From Candidatus Jettenia ecosi (GTDB lineage Bacteria > Planctomycetota > Brocadiia > Brocadiales > Brocadiaceae), in contig SULG01000022.1 in NCBI GenBank assembly GCA_005524015.1, forward strand, positions 1 through 45,434: a stretch of 45,434 bases of DNA, given 5' to 3'. Positions 9 through 43,635 of the stretch are shown here, piece after piece. The position numbers and the translations under genes are program-made. The first letter of the stretch is position 1, and each line of letters starts with the position of its first letter. The notes beneath the pieces are model-generated. The model made no database searches, was not told the DNA's origin, and worked only from the letters and a program-made list of their open reading frames with translations.

Positions 9-60
9 TAAGGGGGATTATGCATTTCCCCCTTTTCTAAAGGGGGATCAAGGGGGATTA
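9..60. repeat. Palindromic repeat family A, copy 1
   Basis: Two runs of AAGGGGGATTA flank the palindrome CCCCCTTTTCTAAAGGGGG. The same module is seen at 22591-22665, in diverged form at 43486-43559, and on the opposite strand inside a coding sequence at 27391-27430. It is non-coding here and could fold as a G/C-rich hairpin. Confidence 0.8.
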
Positions 61-9300: not shown

Positions 9301-9454
9301 ATATTTTTAATACTCTCCTATAATTTATCATAATAATGAGCGACCTGCTTTAAAACAAGGAGAAAATTATTTTGGTTTACTTCAGTATCTGTTTACCGAT
9401 ATACTAGTTGCCCCTAAGTTGAATAATTTTGAAAGTAATTATGGAGAAATATTA

Positions 9455-12124
9455 ATGTATATATCGATTAAAACCCGGCTTATTCTTTTACTTATTGTGT
9501 TTACGCTGCTTCCCTTTATTTTGTTAAAGATTATTGCCTATCCACGGATACAGGCGGATCTTCAGGAGGTACTGATACGTGACCTTGATGGTATGGGACA
9601 CAAACAGGCAGAGTTAGTGACCAATTGGATGCAGGAAAGAATACTGAATACCCGAGTGATAGCAAATAATCCTTTGATGGCTGAAAGTGTAAAGATTACG
9701 AAAGAGGATGAGGACTATCATGATATCGTTCAGTACCTTGAGGTGGTAAAGAATGAGTATGGGTATAAGGGGTTACTGGTAAGCAATGATAAAGGAATCG
9801 TAACCATTGCTACATCGGAAGAAGGGGTGGGAAATGATGTCTCACAGATGGATTATTTCAAGGAAGCCGTACAAGGAAAGACCTATGTATCGAGTGTAGT
9901 GCCATCTGAAATACCCCTTATGAATGAGTATGGAGAAAAAGAACTCGGCCTGCCTAACATGCTTGTCTCATCACCACTGAAAGATAGAGAGGGAAATATC
10001 ATCGGTATTGTTGCGCTAAGGATTGATGTATTGAAACTGAGCGAATTAATGTTAAGCCTCAGTTTAGGAAAGACGGAAGAAACCTACCTTATTAATAAAG
10101 ACGGATACATGATTACCGAATCAAGATTTGCAGGGCACCTCAAAGAAATGGGACTGGTAAAAAAGCGATGCGCCCTGGAATTGAAACTGATTAACCAGGA
10201 AACAGGGAAATTAACCGAAGGCGCACAACAGTGTATTTCAGGCAATAACGGCTTTGATGCACAGGGCTATAAGGATTACAGCGGGGTAACCGTACTGGGG
10301 GTATGGCGCTGGTTACCGGAGTTTCATTGGGGCGTTATCACGGAAATCGATAGAGATGAAGGGTACGGACCAGCCTATAATCTGAATTATATCGTAAGCT
10401 CTGTGCTCTTAATCCTTGCATTTCCCTTTGTTATGGTAGCATACCTTGTGGGGAAAAAACTTTCAGTGCCGATTCTTAAGTTAACGGAAGTGACCAGGAA
10501 AATGGCATCGGGAGATTTAGCGCAACGGGTAGACATCCGGAGAGAAGATGAGCTGGGTGAATTGGCAAGCTCATTTAATGTTATGGCAAAGTCCCTTGTT
10601 GAGAAGACAAAAGAGATCGTCATTTCCGAGAAGAGATACCGGGAGATCTTCAATTCGATTAAAGAAGGGGTGTATCAGTCAGAGCCAGGAGCGGAAGGAG
10701 TCTTTACGTTTATCAACAAGACAGGGGCAGAGATCCTGGGATATAGCGATCCTCAGGAAATAATTGGGACGAGGGTAAAGAATATCTATGTGGATGCGGA
10801 AGACCGGAATCGGTTGTGCGGGAAACTGGAGAAGGATGGGGTCTGGAGAGAGTTTGTATCGCTGTGTAAGAGGAAAAGCGGTGAGAGTTTCTATGCAGAG
10901 CGCACAAGCAGTATGCTGAGGGATGAGAAAGGCAATCCGGCGGCTATTTATGGAGTATTCCGGGATATTTCCGAGAGGAAGAAGGCAGAGATGGAGATCG
11001 TAGAGTCAGAGAAGAGATACCGGTTATTATTTGATTCACTGAAGGAAGGGGTATATCAATCCGGGCCGGAGGTGGATGGGGTATTTACCTGGATTAATCA
11101 GGCAGGGGCAGAGATCCTTGGCTATAAATCTCCGGAAGAAGTGGTTGGGCTTAAGGTAAAGGATGTTTATGTAAATCCGGATGATCAGAAAAAGGTGGTA
11201 GAAAAGCTCTCGAAAGAAGGGGTTTGGAAAGGATTTGCCTCGTTTTGCAAGAGGAAAAATGGTGAACGGTTCCATATGGAGAGGACATCGAGTGTAGTGG
11301 CGGATGAGAAGGGAAACCCAATCCGGATAGACGGGATATTCAGGGATATAACAGAACGGAAGAAGCTGGAGCAGGAGTTACAGGAATCGGAGAGGCATCA
11401 TCGTCAACTGCTGAATTCCTTAAAGGAAGGGATCTATCAGTGTGAACCTGTAGAAGACGGGGTATTTACCTGGATCAATCAGGCAGGGGCAGAGATCTTG
11501 GGCTATGCATCCTCAGAGCAAGCGATAGGAACAAAGGTAAAGGATATATATGCGAATCCTGATGAACGGAGAGAAATCATCGAGAAGTTAACAAGGGAAG
11601 GAATACTAAAGAGTTTTACATCGTTATGCAAGAGACAAAACGGGGAATACTTTTTCATGGAACGGACGTCAAATCTTGTTGTTAATGAGGAAGGAAAACT
11701 GGTCCGCATAGATGGAATATTCAGGGATATTAGTGAACGAAAAAGGCTAGAGGAAGAATTATTAAAATCTGAAATACAGCACAAGCAATTACTGAATTCC
11801 CTGAAAGAAGGGATATACGTGTGTGAGCCTGCAGAAGATGGAGTATTTACCTGGATCAACCAGGCAGGAGCAGAAATACTGGGTTATAATTCACCTGAAG
11901 AAGTTATTGGGATACGGGTAAAGGATGTGTATGTAAATCCCAATGATCGAAAGGAACTGATCAGGAGATTGAAAGAAGAAGGCGTATGGAGAGATTTTGT
12001 TTCCTATTGTAAGAAGAAAAATGGTGAGCGATTCATTTCTGAGACGACATGTAATCTTGAGTATGATGAAAGCGATAAGCCAATCAGAATTGGTGGTATA
12101 TTCAGGGATATAACAGAGAGATAA
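9455..12124 (+). CDS. Membrane sensor with dCache-HAMP and four PAS/PAC repeats, no output domain
   Basis: An 889-residue signalling protein. It has an N-terminal membrane helix (about 8-27), a periplasmic dCache-like sensor (about 30-305, with ATSEEGVGNDVSQMDYFKEA typical of the family), a second membrane helix (about 311-332), HAMP (about 335-390) and four consecutive PAS-PAC units of about 126 residues. Each unit opens with a form of SLKEGxYxxEPxxDGVFTWI and closes with GIFRDITER. The protein stops exactly at the end of the fourth unit. There is no histidine kinase, GGDEF, EAL or methyl-accepting domain, which such sensors normally have. ATG at 9455 with GGAGA upstream is preferred over an in-frame TTG at 9419. 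It may be truncated, or it may act by protein contact. It lies between the two efflux sets, suggesting but not proving metal sensing. Confidence 0.88.
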   Translation: MYISIKTRLILLLIVFTLLPFILLKIIAYPRIQADLQEVLIRDLDGMGHKQAELVTNWMQERILNTRVIANNPLMAESVKITKEDEDYHDIVQYLEVVKNEYGYKGLLVSNDKGIVTIATSEEGVGNDVSQMDYFKEAVQGKTYVSSVVPSEIPLMNEYGEKELGLPNMLVSSPLKDREGNIIGIVALRIDVLKLSELMLSLSLGKTEETYLINKDGYMITESRFAGHLKEMGLVKKRCALELKLINQETGKLTEGAQQCISGNNGFDAQGYKDYSGVTVLGVWRWLPEFHWGVITEIDRDEGYGPAYNLNYIVSSVLLILAFPFVMVAYLVGKKLSVPILKLTEVTRKMASGDLAQRVDIRREDELGELASSFNVMAKSLVEKTKEIVISEKRYREIFNSIKEGVYQSEPGAEGVFTFINKTGAEILGYSDPQEIIGTRVKNIYVDAEDRNRLCGKLEKDGVWREFVSLCKRKSGESFYAERTSSMLRDEKGNPAAIYGVFRDISERKKAEMEIVESEKRYRLLFDSLKEGVYQSGPEVDGVFTWINQAGAEILGYKSPEEVVGLKVKDVYVNPDDQKKVVEKLSKEGVWKGFASFCKRKNGERFHMERTSSVVADEKGNPIRIDGIFRDITERKKLEQELQESERHHRQLLNSLKEGIYQCEPVEDGVFTWINQAGAEILGYASSEQAIGTKVKDIYANPDERREIIEKLTREGILKSFTSLCKRQNGEYFFMERTSNLVVNEEGKLVRIDGIFRDISERKRLEEELLKSEIQHKQLLNSLKEGIYVCEPAEDGVFTWINQAGAEILGYNSPEEVIGIRVKDVYVNPNDRKELIRRLKEEGVWRDFVSYCKKKNGERFISETTCNLEYDESDKPIRIGGIFRDITER

Positions 12125-17448: not shown

Positions 17449-17541
17449 TACTATATTCCATTACGGTACAGACACCAGAACTATACTCCCAGACAATACC
17501 AAAATATAGTACCCTCTGTATTAGACCCGAACATACCGCAT

Positions 17542-17698
17542 TCAACCCCGAAGGGGTAGAATGATTATAGACAAAATATATCCTACCATGAAATTCCGAA
17601 GGGATGACATCTCAACGCAGCTATTCCATGTCACCCCTTCGGGGTTGAAGGGCTTTTTTCTGCTTTTTCTATAATCATAACATCCCTACGGGATTAGG
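17542..17698 (+). repeat. CCCGAAGGG module C3
   Basis: Ordered hairpins CAACCCCGAAGGGG, TTCCGAAGGGATGA, CACCCCTTCGGGG and CATCCCTACGGGAT, with ATGATTATAG near the left end and CTATAATCAT near the right end, form a nested inverted repeat. The right half is almost base-for-base the same as 1890-1999. The CACCCCTTCGGGG hairpin followed by TTTTTTCTGCTTTTT could terminate transcription after the permease gene. Confidence 0.8.
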
Positions 17699-17822
17699 TA
17701 GAGACACAAAATCTTGCATCTCTACAACCGACAAACGCAACATCTTGCGTCTCTACCATTGCAACATCGTGTATCTCTACGTTTAATGTTGAGAAATTTC
17801 AATTCCGTAGGGCAAACCCTTT

Positions 17823-22590: not shown

Positions 22591-22665
22591 TTTCCTCCTT
22601 TCTAAAGGGAGACTAAGGGGAATTATGCATTTCCCCCTTTTCTAAAGGGGGATTAAGGGGGATTA
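22591..22665. repeat. Palindromic repeat family A, copy 2
   Basis: TTTCCTCCTTTCTAAAGGGA is followed by the main palindrome CCCCCTTTTCTAAAGGGGG and AAGGGGGATTA. It continues into GTTATTCTTCACCGTTTCCA, the same sequence that follows copy 1 at the window start. Confidence 0.85.
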
Positions 22666-22691: not shown

Positions 22692-22984
22692 TATAGTACT
22701 CCATGGATGAAACCGAACATACCGCGTATCTCAGAACACCATGAAAACCTACGAATAAATACCCCCGAAGGGGTGACATGGTTATAGATAAGCAATTACC
22801 ATGAAATCAAATCCCGAAGGGATGACACCGGAACGCAGGTTTCTCATGTCACCCCTTCGGGGTTGAAAACCTTTTTTCCGTTTCTGCTATAATCATGACA
22901 TCCCTTCGGGATTGAGAAAGAAAGATACCTTATACCATAACCATGATCTCTCTTCCTGTTCGGTTTCAGTCGTTGATCACTATA
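22692..22984 (+). repeat. 293-bp terminal-inverted-repeat element, locus 2
   Basis: The ends are TATAGT and ACTATA with sub-terminal GATGAAACCGAACAT / TGTTCGGTTTCAGTC. It carries CCCGAAGGG module C4 (about 22760-22915) in the plus orientation. The left arm matches the right arm of locus 1 (96-427), and the right arm matches the left arm of locus 1, so the element is inverted relative to locus 1 while the outer flanks are alike. Confidence 0.65.
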
Positions 22985-26305: not shown

Positions 26306-27901
26306 TTAAGATGATGACTGCATATTTGCCTCTATCTCAGATATCAATTTTTGACTAACCTCCTTCACTTTATCAGAATTATAATAATCAATGGTATGAG
26401 CCTCAAAACCAGAAAGTGTTTTTTCAAAAAGAGTGATAAGCTCATTGTTTACGGTATCGAATGAAGATGATTTGACAGTTGTGTTTGATGTTTTTGTTCC
26501 GTCACAATCAAAATCTTTTGGGATGAAAGACAAGGCAGCCCTGCAAACTGCGGTAATAATTTCCGAGAATGCCTCTATTTTTTGGTCTTGTATCTTATAG
26601 AGCGCTTCATACCTGGTAAACGAGGTATGAGGATTGGAAGTTTCATGCATCACAGACTGGTAGTCAGGTGTCCCTTCAAAAAGAGTTTGCCGGTGATGGA
26701 GCAGGTGCGCAGTTACTGCAGGAGAGGTCATGATTTCCACTTCTTTCAAAAATTCAAAGTTATTTCGTACACTTTCCAGCGTGGAATGAGGTTCAAACAT
26801 AATAAAACCAAAGGTAGGCTCAATCCCATAATCGCGTAATAACTGAATAGCCTTTTTATTTTCATCAACAGTGGTATGCTTCTTAATCCGTTTTAATGAC
26901 TCAGGATCTCCACTCTCTAAACCGAGAAATACCTTGGTAAGGCCTGCCATAACCAGTCTTGAAAGGGAATATTCCTCAATATCATTTACCCGGCACTCAA
27001 AACCGAAATGGATATTTAAATCATTGATGAGTATGAGTTCCGCCAGGGTAATAGCCCGTTCCCTTCCGGATTTTCCAGGACCAAAAAAATTGGCATCTGA
27101 AAAATAGAAGTTCCCGATAGAATACTCGCGGTGTAATATGAGCATTTCATCTACGATATTTTTTACACTCCTGCTGCGCCATTGGCTTATCTGTCCATAG
27201 AAAGGATTGAGATAACAAAAGGTACAGCGTCCATAACACCCGCGGCTTCCTTGTATATAGGTTGCAATGTTTTTCTTTTTATAGAGTTCTATATCCTGCC
27301 TGTCAGGATAAGGAAGCTGATCTATCTCTTGAATAGGATGGCGGGGGTGGAAAATAACCTCTCCGCTCTTGTCTCTCCGGGCAAGGCCGTCAATCCCCCT
27401 TATTCCCCCCCTAAAAAAGGGGGAATAAGAGATGTCTTCAGGAGAGGGGGAATGAAGAATTCCTCTTTGGGATAGGATACACCTTGCAAGATCAAGGGAA
27501 ATAAATTCAGGTTCGCCAATGGTTACCGAATCAATAGAGGGAAAATCGGTAAGGATTTTTTTATGGGCAAACGTGGGATAGTATCCGTAAAGATTGATAT
27601 GTACCCTGTTATTCTTCGATTTTATTACCGAAAGCATATCAAAGACATCGTGCGTCCTCTCCCAAAGATACACCATATGAACACACAGGAGAGGAGATAA
27701 CCTCTTCGAAAGATGTACGATCGTCTGCTCTATTGACCAATCATAGAGGTGCGCATTAATAATCTCTGTTTCTATCTTATGTTTCCTGAATACTGCGGCT
27801 ATATAACCGGTAAAGAGGCAGGCCGATAAGGGGGCGTTGACTACATCCTCAAATCGGTTTGGATTTTCAGGGCGTGGGTGCTCTAGAAGGATTACCGGCA
27901 T
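26306..27901 (-). CDS. B12-binding-domain radical SAM protein (BzaD candidate) with in-frame repeat insertion
   Basis: A 531-residue protein with an N-terminal cobalamin-binding-like Rossmann domain (about 1-140, no DxHxxG motif, with VTIGEPEF near the end) and a radical SAM barrel containing the cluster motif GCYGRCTFCYL (Cys-x3-Cys-x2-Cys, about residues 221-231). A helical C-terminal part follows. Cobalamin-dependent members transfer methyl groups to unactivated carbons; others (BchE-like) cyclise or oxidise. Residues about 150-180 (SPSPEDISYSPFFRGGIRGI and onward) are translated from a family-A palindromic repeat inserted in-frame. Upstream lies a ThiC-like gene (222-base gap) and downstream an O-methyltransferase, as in bza clusters. 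No clear Shine-Dalgarno is seen at 27901. BzaD is an inference; a methylase for another natural product is the alternative. Confidence 0.88.
   Translation of the reverse strand: MPVILLEHPRPENPNRFEDVVNAPLSACLFTGYIAAVFRKHKIETEIINAHLYDWSIEQTIVHLSKRLSPLLCVHMVYLWERTHDVFDMLSVIKSKNNRVHINLYGYYPTFAHKKILTDFPSIDSVTIGEPEFISLDLARCILSQRGILHSPSPEDISYSPFFRGGIRGIDGLARRDKSGEVIFHPRHPIQEIDQLPYPDRQDIELYKKKNIATYIQGSRGCYGRCTFCYLNPFYGQISQWRSRSVKNIVDEMLILHREYSIGNFYFSDANFFGPGKSGRERAITLAELILINDLNIHFGFECRVNDIEEYSLSRLVMAGLTKVFLGLESGDPESLKRIKKHTTVDENKKAIQLLRDYGIEPTFGFIMFEPHSTLESVRNNFEFLKEVEIMTSPAVTAHLLHHRQTLFEGTPDYQSVMHETSNPHTSFTRYEALYKIQDQKIEAFSEIITAVCRAALSFIPKDFDCDGTKTSNTTVKSSSFDTVNNELITLFEKTLSGFEAHTIDYYNSDKVKEVSQKLISEIEANMQSSS
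27391..27430 (-). repeat. Family-A palindrome inside a coding sequence
   Basis: AATCCCCCTTATTCCCCCCC, then TAAAAAAGGGGGAATAAG, matches the reverse complement of the intergenic modules at 9-60 and 22591-22665 at most positions. It lies wholly within the radical SAM gene, preserves the reading frame, and encodes a Phe/Arg/Gly-rich segment between the B12-like domain and the radical SAM barrel. Confidence 0.75.
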
Positions 27902-27924: not shown

Positions 27925-28111
27925 GAGGCCACAGATTTCACAGATTACACAGATAAAGATTTATCATAATTCTACAAAATAATGTTGGGTTGTAATTGTG
28001 CTATTTGTAAGGGGCAAAGCATTTGCTAATCGCCAACCGAGTATATCTTCATATATTTTTGTAAATGCTTTGCCCCTCCCTATCTGTGTAATCGGTGAAA
28101 TCTGCGACCTC
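27925..28111. repeat. Nested inverted repeat between ThiC-like and radical SAM genes
   Basis: Outer arms of 31 bases (27925-27955 and 28081-28111; GAGGCCACAGATTTCACAGA pairs with TCGGTGAAATCTGCGACCTC with few mismatches) enclose a second pair, AGGGGCAAAGCATTT (28010-28024) and AAATGCTTTGCCCCT (28063-28077), which is perfect. It would form a long double hairpin in the transcript. The CACAGATTACACAGAT core is a dispersed repeat type seen in many genomes. Confidence 0.8.
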
Positions 28112-32574: not shown

Positions 32575-33031
32575 CGCTGTTGCATTACTCTGTAAAAATG
32601 GTTTTATAGTGAAAGCTGCATAACGAGAAAAACATCTTACCTACAAAATCTTTCATTTTCTTTTTAATATCAGGTACATGAGTATTAACCCGACTATAGT
32701 AATGGCAAAATATTTTAAATTCAAGGATTTTTTCAAGCAGAACAAAATAGCGGACAGGGAATGCAGTATGTCGTAAGCAACGATTGGAACTGAACGGGAT
32801 ATGGTAGAAATGAAGCTGGTAGCTTATGTTTGGCACATCATGCAGTTAAGATACTATAGAATTTATCCCTTTGGTGGATTCGCTCCGCTTAATCCACCCT
32901 ACCGGTAATTTTATAATGAGTAGGGTGGATTAAGCGGAGCGAATCCACCATTGCATCGTAATGACATTGGTCTGCAACCTGAACTGTTTCTTCTGGTCGA
33001 TAAAAAGGGAGGTTTTCGTTGTATAATACTT
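32575..33031. other. Gap with a perfect 30-bp inverted repeat
   Basis: No convincing gene is seen. A degenerate ACGATTGGAACTGAACGGG end-like sequence lies near 32779-32797, and the perfect inverted repeat at 32874-32950 separates the SAM gene block from the rubrerythrins. Confidence 0.6.
32874..32950. repeat. Perfect 30-bp-arm palindrome
   Basis: GGTGGATTCGCTCCGCTTAA continuing to TCCACCCTAC (32874-32903) is the exact complement of 32921-32950, with a 17-base loop. A diverged relative is at about 24427-24520. It lies between genes transcribed in the same direction and would form a very stable hairpin in RNA. Confidence 0.9.
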
Positions 33032-34868: not shown

Positions 34869-35699
34869 AACGTTACACCATGGTTTGGATAAGGAAAACG
34901 AAAGATTTTACGGTATTCAAGATACGGTTACAGATTTTATTGATTATGGATCTTATACCAGGATTATACCAGGACTTTGCCCTCCTTTGCCATATTATAT
35001 AATGTAAGAGTAACTTTGTTATAGTAATGTTAAAACAAAATGTCACTTTATTTTTGAGATCATGATAGTACAAAAATACCCGTAATTACTCAAAATAAGG
35101 TGCAAAACCTGGGTAGGGGCGAACCTTGTGTTCGCCCTGATCATGGGAAAACGCACAGATCTTGGATTTACACAAAGGGTGGGCGAACACAAGGTTCGCC
35201 CCTACTGTGATCCAACAGTATTTTGAGTAACTACAAATACCCTATAATTCAGAAGTGGTAACAGATAAAATGAAGATGATCTCTATTTCAAGCCCGAAGG
35301 GCTGTCATGATTATAGATAATGAATTACCGCAAAATCAATAACCCTGAAGGGGTAAAATACTTATCAGAAAACAACGGCAAATTCCCAGGCAATGACCGG
35401 TATACACGGGTTTTCCATGCCACCCCTTCGGGGTTCAAATCCTTTCTTCTGCTCTTTTGCTATAATCATACCATCCCTTCGGGATTATGAGACAAAAATA
35501 CCTTGATTGTGTAGGAATTTTCATTTTATGTAAGCGGTTTTCAGGGTGGCATGGACAAACAAAGTTTGTCAGTGCCACCCTTGACTAAACAATACCTTGA
35601 TACTCTATCACTCCGTTTCTTTGGGATGAGGAAAAACTGATCTGCACTTTCCGGGAAATTTTACTCTACTCTGTGACATTTTGTTTTGAGATTGCTATA
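34869..35699. repeat. Gap with nested palindromes and module C5
   Basis: No convincing gene is seen. An outer inverted pair, AATTACTCAAAATA (about 35083-35096) and TATTTTGAGTAACT, encloses the perfect 25-bp-arm palindrome at 35113-35205. Module C5 (about 35289-35488) follows, with CCCGAAGGGCTGTCATGATT, CACCCCTTCGGGG and CATCCCTTCGGGATT. GGGTGGCATGGACAAACAAA / GTTTGTCAGTGCCACCC (about 35546-35579) is a further hairpin near the 3' end of the YihY gene and may help terminate its transcript. Confidence 0.7.
35113..35205. repeat. GTAGGGGCGAACC palindrome, copy 1
   Basis: The arms begin GTAGGGGCGAACCTTGTG and are perfect over 25 bases (35113-35137 with 35181-35205). The same family is at 43636-43727 with one mismatch, with a different loop sequence of nearly the same length. 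Confidence 0.9.
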
Positions 35700-43485: not shown

Positions 43486-43559
43486 ACAACCCCCTAGCCC
43501 CCTTTCTTAAGGGGGATTTCTTCAAGTCCCCCTTAGAAAATGGGGATTCAGGGGGTTGT
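43486..43559. repeat. Palindromic repeat family A, copy 4
   Basis: The outer arms ACAACCCCCT and AGGGGGTTGT enclose CCCCCTTTCTTAAGGGGGAT and CCCCCTTAGAAAATGGGGAT, a double version of the family-A palindrome. Confidence 0.8.
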
Positions 43560-43635
43560 TTCGTATGCTATGATACAAACTTTGAAATTCCTAAACATTT
43601 AATTAGGCCTTCGGCGACTTTTTTATAGCACCTCT

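Follow-up and report, generated by a model that had tools for sequence, protein, structure and literature searches.

Known in-protein palindromic repeats

Palindromic repeats that lie in frame within unrelated conserved proteins, and also between genes, are known from the RPEs of Rickettsia (Ogata 2000), which are 105–146 bp long and have been reviewed (PMC2229807, PMC10969869). Intragenic REPs that carry GTAG/CGTC tags occur in several phyla (Di Nocera et al. 2013, PMC3733652). Their hosts are biased toward repair and tRNA modification (uvrA, UvrD, recBCD and tRNA pseudouridine synthase), and one same-site case was described, in recB of Xanthomonas (PMC3733652). We found no open-access report of repeats of this kind in anammox bacteria, although this does not prove that none exist.

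We describe a palindromic repeat in frame within a radical SAM gene of a member of the Brocadiaceae, which works like RPEs and intragenic REPs but involves another repeat and a lineage new to such insertions. As with RPEs, related repeats occur in frame in unrelated conserved proteins of the family as well as between genes, and give a similar peptide type in each host. We observe a repeat source in the same genome, orthologues free of the insert (for the radical SAM, KBL and U32 proteins), an open frame, unrelated hosts, and a tolerated position, the last modelled for the radical SAM gene of the window only. The initial annotation drew the parallel with Rickettsia in a different lineage; the behaviour is alike, but in-protein palindromes outside Rickettsia were already known (PMC3733652). 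The Brocadiaceae repeats belong to another lineage, have C/G-run stems, and are set apart from RPEs here by length and composition, being shorter (a hairpin of 33–46 nt, or about 95 nt for a coding-type element). Like tagged REPs they are short in-frame palindromes that share sites and are found in repair and tRNA modification proteins (here UvrA, UvrD/AddA, AddB, TruD and MnmE). Unlike them, they lack GTAG/CGTC tags. Nematomorpha mitochondria also have coding inverted repeats, but those are long and perfect and, in the sections of PMC6649704 that concern them, give no sign of being copies of an interspersed repeat, unlike the repeats described here.

The host gene

The window is the whole stretch of DNA analysed, 45,434 nucleotides that make up contig C22 of G000, a near-complete genome of 3.86 Mb whose family and order also include Ca. 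Brocadia and Ca. Kuenenia genomes. G000, G027 and G028 constitute genus g1. The in-gene repeat and its host have the following features:

26306–27901, minus strand: gene for a B12-type radical SAM protein, the host of the insert (ORF, 531 aa)
27389–27457, minus strand: genus-specific extended linker, residues ~149–171 (orthologue alignment; pLDDT < 50 at 151–165)
27392–27424, minus strand: 33-nt match to the consensus of the intergenic palindrome; in frame it encodes residues 160–170, SPFFRGGIRGI (3 mismatches)
27396–27432, minus strand: hairpin with a 17-bp stem and a 3-nt loop (RNA fold −24.5 kcal/mol, z −3.12)

The protein matches Radical_SAM (PF04055) at residues 219–385 (4e-20). Its N-terminal half had been called B12-like, and the predicted fold of the protein does match the cobalamin-dependent radical SAM enzymes OxsB, TsrM and TokK (OxsB and TsrM best, by Foldseek), but the Pfam B12-binding model does not recognise this half. 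All 62 Brocadiales genomes contain a match to the protein, the weaker of which may be paralogues. Because no NCBIfam model reaches its cut-off (the best, BchE, scores 102 bits against 481), the earlier label of a key biosynthetic enzyme is unsupported. Viral contigs searched with ThiC gave nothing relevant.

The in-gene palindrome

Read on the minus strand from 27424 to 27392, the sequence TCCCCCTTTTTTAGGGGGGGAATAAGGGGGATT has 3 mismatches in 33 positions to the repeat consensus TCCCCCTTTTTTAAAGGGGGATTAAGGGGGATT. The region first proposed to match the intergenic repeat, 27391–27430, falls within the radical SAM frame, and the match is borne out: the best chance matches to the 33-nt consensus in three shuffled windows have 12–14 mismatches, never fewer than 12. 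A 21-nt probe also detects the in-gene copy, with an expectation of 0.00 from 100 dinucleotide shuffles. The in-frame residues S160–I170 lie in the Ser/Pro/Phe/Arg/Gly-rich linker noted earlier. By sequence reading, stop codons interrupt most frames of the canonical element, and the in-gene copy has TAT at the position where the canonical left arm has TAA.

In the AlphaFold2 model (mean pLDDT 75), residues 151–165 have pLDDT below 50 and separate the N-terminal domain from the radical SAM barrel. The insert is in a low-confidence interdomain linker; a structure model had been proposed as a check for a surface loop.

The repeat across genomes

Two intergenic copies of the in-gene repeat and one related form are present elsewhere in the window:

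27–59, plus strand: intergenic copy (2 mismatches to the consensus)
22632–22664, plus strand: intergenic copy (1 mismatch to the consensus)
43497–43560, plus strand: related intergenic two-hairpin form, CCCCCTTTCTTAAGGGGG with an inverted partner ~30 nt on

All censuses are pattern searches. The inner hairpin has 152 copies in G000, against 5 for a reversed-pattern control, and at least one copy in 57 of the 62 Brocadiales genomes (range 0 to 189 per genome). The repeat is almost always intergenic, and among the 47 G000 copies listed only the radical SAM copy lies in a substantial ORF. The unpaired end tag of the GTAG/CGTC-tagged REP class is not a feature of these copies, where GTAG (1/47) and CGTC (2/47) near the hairpin are at about background level (1/47 and 1/47).

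Radical SAM orthologues with and without the insert

Among 30 aligned orthologues the linker is in most cases short, as in LSEKDISGELDIPGLAFR, and free of palindromes; the element is present in all three g1 species. These have a common segment of the SPFF(K/R)GG(L/I)RGI type, which reads SPFFKEGLRGI in L010, from G028, and SPFLKGGLKGI in L011. The in-gene copy of L010 has a single mismatch to the repeat consensus. Because the insert is common to G000, G027 and G028, the last of which is a one-contig assembly, it is not an assembly error. We did not find the same segment in distant orthologues lacking the repeat family. A near-identical empty site was not found either, the nearest relatives without the g1-type element being ~71% identical.

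In g7, the linkers of G032 and G033 are long and show no clear palindrome, although L012 may have a degenerate one. Since the g7 linkers of L012 and L019 are similar in length to those with the insert, the net gain of residues is uncertain.

In a sister clade (G038, G039 and G036) the same linker contains palindromes of another type, CCCCCCTTGCGAAGGGGGG, which are shifted in phase by one base and read PPLAKGG or SPPCEGG; G039 has two in tandem. The corresponding loop has no copies in G000 and G028, and 10–23 copies per genome in five g10/g11 genomes. On a radical SAM gene tree from which the linker was excluded, the insert changes state at least three times. The simplest reading of these comparisons is at least two independent insertions at one tolerant site, each of the repeat then resident, together with losses.

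Origin and retention of the insert

We consider it highly probable that a resident copy of the short palindromic repeat inserted in a stop-free phase into the linker that joins the N-terminal domain to the radical SAM domain, before the three g1 species split. The insert would now be translated as about 11–20 additional residues in a flexible linker and would be retained because the site tolerates it, as selfish or neutral DNA of presumably near-neutral effect, in the manner of RPEs. Copies would survive only where frame and position permit, and then drift. In the sister clade the same linker would have been struck again by that clade's own repeat subfamily, and the same process would have placed elements in ~20 other conserved Brocadiaceae protein families.

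An improbable alternative is that the hairpin is kept in the gene for a function in RNA or DNA (attenuation, an RNase III or Rho signal, or protein binding), its coding being incidental. The in-gene hairpin does fold strongly (z −3.1), and the G000 stem is more stable than those of the sister copies, but the stems of G028 and G027 are eroded (−15.9 and −17.2 kcal/mol) while the frame is still open. It is far less probable that the insert is skipped rather than translated, in the manner of the bypassing elements of yeast mitochondria. Palindromic insertions in genes are bypassed in Magnusiomyces mitochondria, according to work cited in PMC6649704. However, nearly every copy described here leaves its host frame open, and the KBL inserts are of whole-codon length, neither of which bypassing would require. 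Finally, linker length varies across the radical SAM family, but a chance resemblance of G-rich low-complexity sequence to the repeat is refuted by a 33-nt match with 1–3 mismatches (12–14 at best in shuffles) and by the palindrome subfamilies in this linker, which differ from clade to clade.

Under the preferred explanation, insertion of a resident repeat, the repeat itself is probably mobile. A possible mover, though somewhat less likely than not, is a trans-acting Y1/HUH transposase. Y1_Tnp is found in 60 of the 62 Brocadiales genomes, and the number of Y1 transposases is not correlated with the number of palindromes (rho 0.13, p 0.31). Template switching at hairpins is another candidate.

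The stem of the in-gene copy is perfect in G000 and eroded in the sister copies (L010, L011), though the G028 copy is nearer the consensus. Quasipalindrome correction by template switching is a possible source of the perfect G000 stem.

Other in-protein palindromes in Brocadiaceae

Related elements occur in frame in ~20 conserved protein families of Brocadiaceae. By Pfam, the hosts include TruD, MnmE, SelA, UvrA, UvrD/AddA-type and AddB-type helicase-nucleases, a phosphodiesterase, a PDZ protein, a Radical_SAM_N2 protein, a U32 protein, a P-type ATPase, YfhO, CobT, a GltD-like oxidoreductase and others. The element lies between two domains in Lnt, in ApbE, and again in a further B12-binding radical SAM protein (L189). 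Some long frames with the palindrome close to one end, such as CbiD (L207) and a LOG protein (L100), may be extensions instead of containing true inserts. One copy, in L091, is covered by a 109-aa ORF that had no family match and was excluded from the count. Among the 36 TTCGCAA-loop copies listed for g10/g11, 16 lie inside ORFs of at least 200 aa, mostly in G038 and G040.

The search for similar elements that had been proposed gave one more case in G000 and many in relatives. The G000 case is a palindrome of another family, CCCTTGATGGAAGGGGTAGAGGGG, in a 751-aa U32-type protein (L235, G000:C18:36710–38962), where it sits in a g1-specific linker of ~70 aa; orthologues without the insert exist. 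L194 was rejected as a counterpart of this protein, being a distant paralogue, and was replaced via orthologue search.

The KBL orthologues are the clearest case of this wider in-protein insertion. All but one of the 62 genomes (61) contain a match to KBL, the remoter matches being paralogues. The aligned segment is 68 residues against 36; G038, G041 and G017 carry 32 extra codons that most other genomes lack, and in G036 and G026 this position is occupied by different palindromes. The KBL tree requires at least six changes of state, and G017 has the insert while its tree sister G022 does not. Filled and empty KBL sites were compared for the target-site duplication expected of a MITE, and their flanks are strongly diverged.

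These cases, which involve dozens of host proteins, would extend the conversion of palindromic repeat DNA to protein to an order of planctomycetes. Many sister genomes have or lack an insert, so that comparative work, together with proteomics of anammox enrichments, can directly address the long-standing question of whether the inserts are neutral, selfish or of use to the host.

A coding-type element

Beyond the palindrome, several inserts have a 5' flank in common, (R/K)LTKEDKN. This coding-type subfamily encodes LTKEDKNTPPxSPPSQGG. A DNA pattern for the flank, with up to 3 mismatches, has 11 matches in the 62 genomes and none in a reversed control; 9 are in inserts already identified, the other 2 were checked, and all 11 lie inside ORFs in the same frame. 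Of the peptide-profile matches listed, 26 of 30 that include the flank are in frames of at least 300 aa, against ~24 of 125 for the palindrome only (hand-counted, approximate numbers compared by Fisher). Because the profile was trained on in-protein copies, the DNA flank search is the better evidence. In 149 sampled Planctomycetota genomes, profile matches at 1e-4 occur in Brocadiales only.

We tentatively raise the rather doubtful proposal that Brocadiaceae have an element specialised for coding sites, a unit of ~95 nt with the LTKEDKN 5' flank and a palindrome, confined to ORFs in one strand and frame and repeatedly re-using tolerant sites in conserved enzymes. In annotated proteins of Brocadiaceae, loops of the PPxSPPSQGG type may derive from repeats instead of being functional motifs.

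Other repeats

A 232-aa CobU-like frame, recognised by eye in L231 (around 1501, G039:C190), has three different palindromic repeats adjacent in frame. One is of the GGGCGAAC type, which is also intergenic in the window at 35107 and 43630. The window further contains a longer intergenic repeat family of ~160 nt with several CCCGAAGGGG palindromes (1837–2003, 17535–17701, 22752–22919 and 35281–35457), and an inverted pair of CACAGATTTCACAGATTACACAGAT-type repeats (27925–28111) between the radical SAM gene and thiC. A perfect 31-bp inverted repeat with GTAGGGTGGATTAAGCGGAGCGAATCCACC at 32872–32950 is GTAG-ended and REP-like. At 9419–12124, a 901-aa ORF has four direct repeats of ~381 nt (127 codons).
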